Assembly (NCBI GenBank): GCA_937873205.1
Contig: CALMVO010000127.1
Location: forward strand, 1-64,000
Reading direction: 5' to 3'
DNA from: an uncultured Acetobacteraceae bacterium
Lineage (GTDB): Bacteria; Pseudomonadota; Alphaproteobacteria; Acetobacterales; Acetobacteraceae
DNA: 64,000 nucleotides
Part shown: in pieces, positions 5,750 to 11,743 of the stretch
Numbering within the stretch: the first letter of the stretch is position 1
Layout of the letters: the number at the start of each line of letters is the position of its first letter
Program-made: the position numbers and the translations under genes
The notes under the pieces: generated by a model
Told to the model about the DNA's origin: nothing
Seen by the model: the letters and a program-made list of their open reading frames with translations, nothing else
Databases searched by the model: none

Positions 5750-8017
5750 ATGGCTTGGATATCGTCCGGCTCCTGGAAGACGCGTTGGCCGGCCGGTCTG
5801 GTCGGCATCGCGGCCGCGGCGGCCTCGCCGGCGTCCGCCCAAACCGCGCCGGCGCCGGCCGTCCAGCCGGGCGCCCCGGCGGAGGAAGTGGTGGTGACGG
5901 CGGAGAAGAAGCCCGAACGTCTGCAGGACACGCCGGTCTCGGTGACGGTGCTGAACACGACCCAGCTCAGCGAGGACAACCAGGTCCGCCTGCAGGATTA
6001 TTTCGACACGGTGCCCGGGCTGTCGATCCAGGCCGAGGGCAACGGCCAGACCAACATCGTGCTGCGCGGCATCTCCTCGGCGCAGCAGGCGAACCCGACC
6101 GTGGGCATCCTGATCAACGACGTGCCGTTCGGCTCCTCCACCGTGCTGGGCGAGGGCGACGTGCTGGCGCCCGACCTCGATCCGGCCGACCTATCGCAGA
6201 TCGAGGTGCTGCGCGGCCCGCAGGGCACGCTCTACGGCGCCAGCAGCCTGGGCGGCCTGATCAAGTACGTGACCGCCGACCCGTCCACCCGGGCGCTGAC
6301 TGGCCGCGTCGAGACCGACGTGGACGGCACGGCCGGCGGCGGCGTCGGCTACGGCGTGCGGGGCGGCGTCAACGTGCCGCTCAGCGACACCGTGGCCATG
6401 CGCGTCAGCGGCTTCTCGCGACAGACACCGGGCTATGTCGACAACGTCGTGAACGGCGACGGCAACGTCAACTACGTCAACGCCCAGGGCGGCAACGTGT
6501 CGCTGCTCTGGACGCCCAGCCAGGATTTCTCGATCCGCCTCGGCGCCATCCTGCAGGACACCAAGGGCCGGGGGTTCGACGGCGTGACCACGACGGTCGA
6601 CCAGCAGCCGGTGTTCGGCGACCTCGGGCAGAGCGTGGTGCCGAACTCGGGCATGTTCGACAGCTTCGTCCAGCTCTACTCCGGCGAGGTGCGCGCCCAT
6701 CTCGGGCGCACCGACCTCACCTCGGTGACCGGCTACGGCCTCACCGACTATGCCGCGAACCTCAACTTCCCGGAGTATGACGGCACGGTAGCCGCCGCCA
6801 CGGCGGGCCCCGATGCCGTCGACGGTGCCGAGCTCGAGGACCGCTTCCAGACCCGCAAGTTCACGCAGGAGGTGCGCCTGGCCTCGTCGCCGGGCGAGTT
6901 CTCGATACTGGGGCGCCGCATCGACTGGGTGGTGGGCGTGTTCTACGACAACGAAACGACGCCGGCCGACCAGTCGATCCTCGCCACCGACGCCCTGACC
7001 GGCCGCGTGGCGGGATCCGTCGTCAACATCGAGTTCCCGTCGACCTACGAGGAGATCGCCGGGTTCGGCGACGTCACGCTGCACGTCACCCCCCGCCTCG
7101 AGATCCAGGGCGGCCTGCGCTACGCCTACAACAACCAGACCTACCGCGAGCGCGACGACTACGACCCGACATTGGGCGCGCCGACGCCGCAGTTCTTCTC
7201 CTCGACCTCCTACGACACGCCCGTCACCTTCCTGTTCACGCCGAGCTACCGCCTGTCACCCGACGCCCTGTTGTACATGCGGATCGCCTCGGGCTATCGC
7301 CCCGGCGGCCCGAACGCGGACATCGTCCCCGGCCTCGGTACGCCGACCAGCTACGGCGCCGACACCACGGTCAACTACGAGCTCGGCGCGAAGGGCGACG
7401 TGCTCGATCACCGCCTGAGCTACGACCTGTCGGCCTACGACATCGAGTGGAGCAACATCCAGATCCAGCTGACCGACCCGGTGACCCAGTTCATCTACTT
7501 CGCCAACGCCGAGTCCGCCCGCAGCACCGGGGCCGAGTTCAGCCTGAGCTACCGGCTGGCGCATGCCCTGCGCGTCACCGCCAACGGCAGCTACGACGTG
7601 GCCGAGCTGACGCAGCCGATCCCGGCCGGCAATGGCGTCGGCCACGCCGGCACCCCGCTGCCGTTCACGCCGCGGTTCGAGGGCAGCCTGTCGGTCGAGC
7701 GCGACGTCCGGCTGTCCCGCGACTGGACCGCGACCGCGGGCGCCACGCTCAGCTATGTCGGCCGTCGCTACGAGACGTTCGCCAGCAGCCCCGGCAACCT
7801 GCGCCCGATCCTGCCCGACTACGAGAAGCTCAACCTGCACGTCGCCGCCCACGACGCGCACTGGACGGTCACCCTGTTCGCCAACAACGTGACCAACACG
7901 CGCGGCGCGCTGTCGACGATCTCGCAGTCCGGATCGGTCGCCACCGCCACCAGCCTCTACGACACCATCTACATCCAGCCGCTCACCGTCGGCCTGTCCG
8001 TCGTGCGCGCTTTCTGA
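5750..8017 (+). CDS. TonB-dependent outer-membrane receptor
   Basis: The protein (755 aa) has a signal peptide of about 30 residues (hydrophobic stretch, then ASPASAQT), a TonB-box-like EEVVVTAEK at about residue 45, a plug domain (TPVSVTVLN to LRGPQGTLYGASSLGG, about residues 60-175) and a C-terminal beta-barrel ending in the aromatic residue of VVRAF. It would import a scarce or bulky ligand across the outer membrane using TonB energy. ATG 5750 is preceded by AGGAGG at seven bases. It is the first gene of a run with a P450, an MFS transporter and a sarcosine-oxidase-like enzyme, which suggests a specific small organic substrate rather than iron alone. The ligand cannot be read from the sequence. 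Confidence 0.9.
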   Translation: MAWISSGSWKTRWPAGLVGIAAAAASPASAQTAPAPAVQPGAPAEEVVVTAEKKPERLQDTPVSVTVLNTTQLSEDNQVRLQDYFDTVPGLSIQAEGNGQTNIVLRGISSAQQANPTVGILINDVPFGSSTVLGEGDVLAPDLDPADLSQIEVLRGPQGTLYGASSLGGLIKYVTADPSTRALTGRVETDVDGTAGGGVGYGVRGGVNVPLSDTVAMRVSGFSRQTPGYVDNVVNGDGNVNYVNAQGGNVSLLWTPSQDFSIRLGAILQDTKGRGFDGVTTTVDQQPVFGDLGQSVVPNSGMFDSFVQLYSGEVRAHLGRTDLTSVTGYGLTDYAANLNFPEYDGTVAAATAGPDAVDGAELEDRFQTRKFTQEVRLASSPGEFSILGRRIDWVVGVFYDNETTPADQSILATDALTGRVAGSVVNIEFPSTYEEIAGFGDVTLHVTPRLEIQGGLRYAYNNQTYRERDDYDPTLGAPTPQFFSSTSYDTPVTFLFTPSYRLSPDALLYMRIASGYRPGGPNADIVPGLGTPTSYGADTTVNYELGAKGDVLDHRLSYDLSAYDIEWSNIQIQLTDPVTQFIYFANAESARSTGAEFSLSYRLAHALRVTANGSYDVAELTQPIPAGNGVGHAGTPLPFTPRFEGSLSVERDVRLSRDWTATAGATLSYVGRRYETFASSPGNLRPILPDYEKLNLHVAAHDAHWTVTLFANNVTNTRGALSTISQSGSVATATSLYDTIYIQPLTVGLSVVRAF

Positions 8018-8036
8018 GCGCGGGACCGCATCAGGC

Positions 8037-10588: not shown

Positions 10589-10600
10589 GGGAGGGGGCAC

Positions 10601-11743
10601 TTGGCCCACGGCCGGATCCTGATCGTCGGCGGCGGCATCGCCGGCCTCTGCACCGCCTGGGCGCTGGCCCGGCGCGGCTATGCGGTCGAGCTGTTCGAGC
10701 GGGGCGACCTGCCCAACCAGCACTCCTCCTCCTGCGACGAGCACCGCATCATCCGCCACGCCTATGGCGAGATGGAGGGCTACGGCGCGCTGATGCCGGC
10801 GGCGTTCGAGGCCTGGCGGCGGCTGTTCGGCGACCTCGGCGCCCGGCACCTGGAGCCGATGCCGGCCTACTACGCCCTGCGCGGCGAGGATGACTGGTAC
10901 GAGACCACCCGCCGCTCGCTTCGCCGCATGGGCGTGGACTGTGCCGAGATGCCGCTGTCGGAGGTGGCGGACACGTTCCCGATGCTGCGCACCGACGGGC
11001 TGACCCGCATGGTCCGCACCGAGGGGGCCGGCGTGCTGTATGCCGCGCGCATCCTCGCCGACCTCACGAACCGGCTGCCGGCGCTCGGCGTGCGGCTGCA
11101 TCCGCGCACCGCGGTCCGCGCGGTGGACTGCGAGGCGGGGACGGTGGCGACGGCGGCGGGCATGGTCCAGGGCGACCGCGTGGTGGTGGCGGCCGGCGCC
11201 TGGGTCGCGGACCTGCTGCCGGAGCTGGCGGGCGTCGCCGTGCCGTCGCGCCAGGCGGTGATGTATCTGGCGCCGCCGCCGCAGCTCGCCGCGGCGTGGC
11301 GGGACGCGCCGGTGCTGATCGACATCGGCGGCGGCGGCGGCACCTATACCATCCCGCCGCGGCCGGGCACGCGGCTCAAGATCGGCGACCACGTGTTCAG
11401 CCGTACCGGCCATCCAGACGACGACCGCGCCGCGACGACCGGCGACCTCGACCGCCTGATCGCGGTGGCACGCGGGTCCTGGCGCGACTTCGACCAGTAC
11501 ACGGTGCTGGAGCGCAGGATCTGCTACTACACCGCTACCGCCGACGAGCGCTTCCTGGTGCGCGCCGAGGGCGGGCGAGGCATCGTCTGCTCTGCCTGTT
11601 CCGGCCACGGCTTCAAGCTGGCGCCGCTGGTCGCGGACCGGATCGCGGCGACGATCGCGGGCGAGCGCGAGCTGGCGATGCTGCCAAGCTGGGCGGCGGC
11701 TCGCGACGCACACGCGATCGAGTTCGAGCCCGGTGCGCTCTGA
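10601..11743 (+). CDS. FAD-dependent amine oxidase, monomeric sarcosine oxidase-like
   Basis: This is a 380-aa flavoenzyme of the DAO/MSOX family. It begins with the dinucleotide-binding motif GGGIAG at about residues 9-14 and has CSGHGFKLAPLVAD near the C-terminus. C308 in ICYYT lies at the position of the cysteine that binds FAD covalently in monomeric sarcosine oxidase. Relatives oxidise N-methyl or secondary amines to an imine plus H2O2. The TTG start follows GGGAGG-like sequence and lies 12 bp after the transporter stop. As the last gene of the TonB-P450-MFS run it probably completes degradation of the imported compound, perhaps an N-methylated amine. A palindromic repeat begins two bases after its stop codon. 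Confidence 0.87.
   Translation: MAHGRILIVGGGIAGLCTAWALARRGYAVELFERGDLPNQHSSSCDEHRIIRHAYGEMEGYGALMPAAFEAWRRLFGDLGARHLEPMPAYYALRGEDDWYETTRRSLRRMGVDCAEMPLSEVADTFPMLRTDGLTRMVRTEGAGVLYAARILADLTNRLPALGVRLHPRTAVRAVDCEAGTVATAAGMVQGDRVVVAAGAWVADLLPELAGVAVPSRQAVMYLAPPPQLAAAWRDAPVLIDIGGGGGTYTIPPRPGTRLKIGDHVFSRTGHPDDDRAATTGDLDRLIAVARGSWRDFDQYTVLERRICYYTATADERFLVRAEGGRGIVCSACSGHGFKLAPLVADRIAATIAGERELAMLPSWAAARDAHAIEFEPGAL

Follow-up and report, generated by a model that had tools for sequence, protein, structure and literature searches.

What does a bacterium gain from a TonB-dependent receptor, a cytochrome P450, an MFS transporter, and a sarcosine oxidase-like flavoenzyme that are encoded one after the other? 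This question was raised by a locus in an uncultured Acetobacteraceae bacterium (genome G000, 3.73 Mb). The window, which is the whole 64,000-nucleotide stretch of DNA that we analyzed, is located on contig C127, and base 1 of the window is base 1 of the contig. The function that we propose rests on gene context; the likeliest compound to be imported and oxidized is an N-methylated amino acid or a molecule that contains one.

Four adjacent genes form an operon

The first gene (5750 to 8017, plus strand) encodes a TonB-dependent outer-membrane receptor with a signal peptide, Pfam matches to the Plug (4e-20) and barrel (1e-6) domains, and a TonB-box-like sequence, EEVVVTAEKK; an AGGAGG is located upstream of its ATG. 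The second gene (8037 to 9263, plus strand) encodes a cytochrome P450 (Pfam p450, 6e-26) in which all of the motifs were intact, namely AGHETT at 241 (the I-helix Thr), EALR at 279 (ExxR), and FGYGIHLCIG at 343 (the heme-Cys loop). The third gene (9260 to 10588, plus strand) encodes an MFS transporter (MFS_1, 7e-44). The fourth gene (10601 to 11743, plus strand) has a TTG start and encodes a monomeric-sarcosine-oxidase-like FAD oxidase (Pfam DAO, 1e-40), which is a predicted N-alkyl α-amino acid oxidase. In the case of the putative spinster-type MFS protein, the MFS_1 fold was found, and the spinster label is a reading of the sequence only.

All four genes were intact and co-directional, and they were separated by 19, -4, and 12 nt; the start of the MFS gene overlapped the stop of the P450 gene as ATGA. 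Thus, the placement of four genes on one strand with small gaps or overlaps in the initial annotation was confirmed. Its coordinates were also right, save for the MFS start: the open reading frame was listed from 9131, and the natural start is the ATG at 9260. GC3 was 0.91 to 0.95 in each of the four genes. Given this spacing and the GC3 throughout, the four genes almost certainly form an operon and are not a chance run of open reading frames. The downstream border of the operon is an interspersed palindromic repeat, a 117-nt element (11744 to 11860, unstranded) that contains an imperfect palindrome (11760 to 11838). Partial copies of the element were found in the window (near 29616 to 29727, 56985 to 57078, and 61041 to 61136) and on other G000 contigs.

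The oxidase is predicted to act on an N-alkyl amino acid

In sarcosine oxidase (MSOX), Lys265 is catalytic and Cys315 links the flavin. When the window oxidase was aligned to the Bacillus enzyme (1el5), residues R49, R52, Y55, Y249, K260, H264, C308, and K339 corresponded to MSOX Arg49, Arg52, Tyr55, Tyr254, Lys265, His269, Cys315, and Lys348, respectively (Y249 and K260 were numbered manually on the alignment). Hence, the catalytic lysine (K260) and the flavin-linking cysteine (C308) were both present. In the MSOX family, Arg52, Tyr55, and Lys348 hold the substrate carboxylate (PMC12582975), and this clamp was kept as R52, Y55, and K339. Because the clamp, the lysine, and the cysteine were intact, there is good reason to predict that the oxidase acts on a secondary (N-alkyl) α-amino acid.

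The oxidase therefore shares its fold family, carboxylate clamp, catalytic lysine, and flavin-linking cysteine with MSOX and SolA (monomeric sarcosine and N-methyltryptophan oxidases), but it scored below both of the NCBIfam curated cut-offs and formed a clade of its own. Specifically, its best NCBIfam model was N-methyl-L-tryptophan oxidase, for which the equivalog threshold was missed (161 bits versus a cut-off of 257), and it scored 122 bits against the soxA_mon model (cut-off of 480).

The closest relatives of the oxidase are in betaine-type Rieske clusters

The oxidase was the only member of the cassette with close relatives, which were up to 62% identical. The closest enzymes (61 to 62% identity) were encoded by G156, G344, G289, and G212, four genomes that belong to a single other genus. 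Three of these four loci were read at length (L150, L152, and L151), and the gene order was Rieske oxygenase, Cys/Met-metabolism PLP enzyme, SoxA-like protein, SoxB-like protein, and oxidase. The same Rieske-to-oxidase order with an extra reductase gene was found in G057, G306, G190, and the distant genome G128. The nearest PDB entries to the G057 Rieske protein were demethylases of the 3vca/4qup type (3vca is Stc2), and the nearest model was GbcA. These enzymes are group Vb Rieske oxygenases, which demethylate betaines (PMC7948474). In addition, a betaine-type ABC transporter appears to be encoded next to the clusters of L150 and L151, and such a transporter is annotated near a related cluster in Paracoccus denitrificans.

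In our tree, the window oxidase was nested inside the clade of Rieske-cluster enzymes, with support of 100/99 for its grouping with the closest-genus enzymes and 97/95 for the 17-member clade. This nesting, together with the betaine-type Rieske genes that head the relatives' clusters, suggests that the oxidase very probably descends from an N-demethylation pathway. The operon was initially viewed as serving the uptake and demethylation of an N- or O-methylated natural product. The N-dealkylation part of that view agrees with the residues and relatives of the oxidase, and the O-methyl part was without support. The presence of its relatives beside Stc2/GbcA-like Rieske and SoxAB-like genes, together with the residues that it has kept, narrows the likely substrate from N- or O-methylated natural products at large to an N-alkyl α-amino acid.

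A proposed role in import and N-dealkylation

Our main reading, which we hold tentatively and at slightly less than even confidence, is that the genes form a catabolic scavenging operon whose products import an N-alkylated amino acid, or a conjugate of one, and remove its N-alkyl groups step by step. An amino-acid-derived compound would cross the outer membrane through the TonB receptor and then the inner membrane through the MFS protein. The P450 would next oxidize the compound, and in the simplest case this step would take off an N-alkyl (or blocking) group so that a secondary amine remains. Finally, the flavoenzyme would strip the last N-alkyl group from the α-amino acid. This reaction would release the free amino acid and H2O2 together with an aldehyde, which would be formaldehyde in the case of a methyl group. 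Catabolic import is a probable part of this scheme, and action of the P450 immediately before the oxidase is a doubtful part. The catabolic direction, the P450-before-oxidase order, the ligand class, the role of the P450, and the direction of transport are all points that we infer.

In favor of this reading, we counted the operon spacing and the ATGA overlap, the oxidase residues, the nesting in the Rieske clade, the failure to find Rieske and SoxB-like partners in G000, and the occurrence of receptor relatives near amine and amino-acid oxidases. Against it, we counted a gene order found in one genome, the lack of a redox partner in the operon and of a BenC-type reductase in G000, and P450 and receptor identities of only 35 to 38% to anything found, which meant that the substrates of these two proteins could not be deduced from their relatives. 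Neither an amine-specific regulator nor an aldehyde or formaldehyde dehydrogenase was linked to the operon.

The stachydrine and glycine betaine demethylation systems (Stc2, GbcA, and accessory oxidases) resemble the proposed pathway in that such Rieske enzymes head the clusters from which the oxidase appears to come, but the window operon has a P450 and a TonB receptor in place of the Rieske oxygenase and the ABC transporter. No match to an Stc2/GbcA-type Rieske oxygenase (at 1e-15) or to the SoxB-like subunit (at 1e-100) was found in G000, and the P450 may stand in for these missing partners. A more specific proposal, in which the P450 replaced the Rieske oxygenase and SoxAB and works with the flavoenzyme to demethylate an amino-acid betaine or N-methylated amino acid imported via a TonB receptor of its own, is one that we consider rather improbable. 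If the proposed role is right, a clade of enzymes that resemble sarcosine oxidase and lack a known substrate would gain a function that can be tested, and a P450 would perform an amine-demethylation step that is usually assigned to Rieske oxygenases. A further implication would be that N-alkylated amino acid derivatives, which are usually thought to enter cells by porins and ABC transporters, have a TonB receptor.

The P450 is likely to depend on an unlinked electron donor

No redox partner for the P450 was found in the operon. The ferredoxin-like gene at 11944, which had been noted beyond the repeat, is separated from the operon by that element and is followed by a DedA gene. This 2Fe-2S/DedA pair was found together in four same-genus genomes (G001 to G004) that lack the cassette, which indicates that the 11944 gene belongs to the core chromosome and is outside the cassette. 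The repeat was real, the gene was not part of the set, and we rejected it as the P450 partner. A BenC-type reductase was also rejected because none was found in G000. With no linked partner, no BenC-type reductase, and nine Fer2-domain loci in G000, the electrons for the P450 must come from an unlinked ferredoxin.

The closest P450s that we found were 35 to 38% identical to the window P450. The best match among the 299 family genomes (38%) was in G188, and Paraburkholderia proteins in which a P450 is fused to a BenC-type reductase and an FCD domain were 35% identical. The Paraburkholderia proteins and the window P450 have an N-terminal LDWP...DPY..Y.WM stretch in common. However, the Paraburkholderia P450 has its reductase fused and the G188 P450 has an adjacent ferredoxin, whereas the window P450 has neither. 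A scan of genome contigs with the P450 as the query yielded only P450s of 31 to 36% identity; at one of the P450 loci (L029), a partial MFS match was located about 3.3 kb away.

The four-gene set was found in one genome and in a variable chromosomal stretch

We searched for three of the genes in 299 family genomes, for the P450 in 385 class genomes, and for each of the four in 72,556 plasmids. The best identities among the 299 family genomes were 38% for the P450, 37% for the MFS protein, and 37% for the TonB receptor. None of the 384 other class-wide genomes had a P450 match that reached an E value of 1e-55, and no plasmid record was at least 60% identical to any of the four proteins (the plasmid matches to the MFS protein were about 41% identical). 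The P450 and the oxidase occurred together in none of the neighborhoods examined, and the plasmid neighborhoods examined for the MFS protein and the receptor had no P450 or oxidase of the cassette's kind. Hence, the check proposed in the initial annotation, that relatives share the four-gene order, failed, and the set was found in one genome only. The linkage of the four genes rests on operon structure in this single example. In the part of the literature that was covered, we found no paper on such a gene set, on the peptide blocks of the receptor described below, or on a P450 with a monomeric sarcosine oxidase. The combination of parts is new, and the whole is a transporter-oxygenase-oxidase catabolic operon, which is a known sort.

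The flanks of the operon indicated that the cassette is in a stretch of chromosome that varies between close relatives, based on the differing surroundings of the 2Fe-2S/DedA pair and a deletion scar. By our reading, the pair is preceded by flagellar genes in two of these genomes (G002 and G003) and by hemE in the other two (G001 and G004). The scar (4774 to 5478) is what remains of a lost histidine-utilization (hut) operon just upstream of the cassette. In the scar, a urocanase fragment made up of the C-terminal 146 residues (minus strand, 5211 to 4774) adjoins the C-terminal part of formimidoylglutamate deiminase (plus strand, about 5200 to 5478). The intact locus in the same-genus genome G002 has hutF (minus strand) followed by hutI, hutH, and hutU (plus strand), and the G002 urocanase is 90% identical across the scar fragment. 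This gene order and this match suggest that one internal deletion explains the scar; no second urocanase match was found in G000.

A molybdopterin oxidoreductase gene (1821 to 4673) was also found in the window. The protein is of the formate dehydrogenase/assimilatory nitrate reductase kind, scored under every curated cut-off, and had only 38% matches in G001, in G005, and elsewhere in G000. It is another accessory gene, and its role is uncertain.

The setting of the cassette bears on the idea that the four genes serve no single pathway. According to this idea, rearrangement of a chromosomal region that varies among relatives joined an uptake pair to two oxidizing enzymes that are used separately. 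The gene order was not conserved, the locus was different in every same-genus genome examined, and it adjoins the hut deletion scar, all of which favors this idea. However, the tight spacing, the start-stop overlap, the intact genes, and the uniform GC3 argue against it, and transporter-oxygenase-oxidase operons are functional units as a rule. We consider this explanation unlikely.

Receptor relatives point to amino-acid-derived ligands

The nearest relatives of the receptor (35 to 37% identity) were in amine-oxidation and peptide-use neighborhoods. The receptor's own nearest group in the tree (support of 95/96) contained the receptors of L088 and L089. The L089 receptor adjoins a flavin amine oxidase, a Rieske oxygenase, and a type III glutamine synthetase, and about 5 kb from the L088 receptor are genes for a DAO-family oxidase and for RidA-type and OCD-type proteins. 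Relatives at 32 to 36% identity were mostly in blocks that also encode a serine hydrolase, a dipeptide epimerase, a POT transporter, and a DUF1611 protein; such blocks were found on Novosphingobium and Croceicoccus plasmids as well as within the same genus and family. Both settings suggest a class of ligands derived from amino acids, and receptor specificity may differ at such identity.

These blocks also suggest a peptide-scavenging cassette, in which the receptor would import a modified oligopeptide, the MFS protein would carry the peptide or an amino acid, the P450 would trim the peptide or a side chain, and the oxidase would take the released imino acid or N-methyl residue. The weak activity of the Bacillus sarcosine oxidase on proline and thioproline (PMC12582975) is consistent with this possibility, as is the presence of receptor relatives in such blocks in the same genus, the family, and sphingomonad plasmids. 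However, the operon contains no peptidase, epimerase, or hydrolase, the partner genes of the peptide-use blocks are all absent from it, and the window receptor grouped with L088 and L089 and outside the peptide-block receptors. A peptide-scavenging role is thus improbable. It is very unlikely that the locus serves a metallophore or secondary metabolite that the P450 and the oxidase tailor and the MFS protein exports: the best NCBIfam model for the receptor was a siderophore-receptor subfamily (117 bits versus a cut-off of 223) and NikD, the imino-acid oxidase of an antibiotic pathway, was a distant match of the oxidase, but the operon has no synthetase or ligase, no Fur-like box was seen by eye in 5479 to 5749, and the clusters of the oxidase relatives read as catabolic.

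Recurrent gene arrangements in other genomes

Three arrangements were observed outside the window. First, genes for an HTH regulator, a serine hydrolase, a dipeptide epimerase, a POT transporter, a TonB receptor, and a DUF1611 protein recurred together in this family and in sphingomonads (L090, L091, L092, L093, L125, and L127), and the block resembles an uptake system for peptides or D-amino acids.

Second, four Paraburkholderia plasmids carried a single intact gene of about 930 codons that encodes the BenC-type reductase, FCD, and P450 fusion (L082, 6420 to 9209; L156, 2423 to 5212; L157, 2420 to 5209; and L158, 2333 to 5212). The four were 90 to 92% identical. The FCD domain is normally the ligand-binding half of GntR regulators.

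Third, the cluster of betaine-type Rieske oxygenase, PLP enzyme, SoxA-like, SoxB-like, and sarcosine-oxidase-like genes, in some cases with a reductase, was conserved in many genomes (L035, 3402 to 10895; L036, L150, L151, L152, L153, and L154), and it may merit study more than the window cassette. Its PLP enzyme belongs to the cystathionine-gamma-synthase family, which leads us to speculate that the substrate is a betaine of a sulfur- or oxygen-bearing amino acid.
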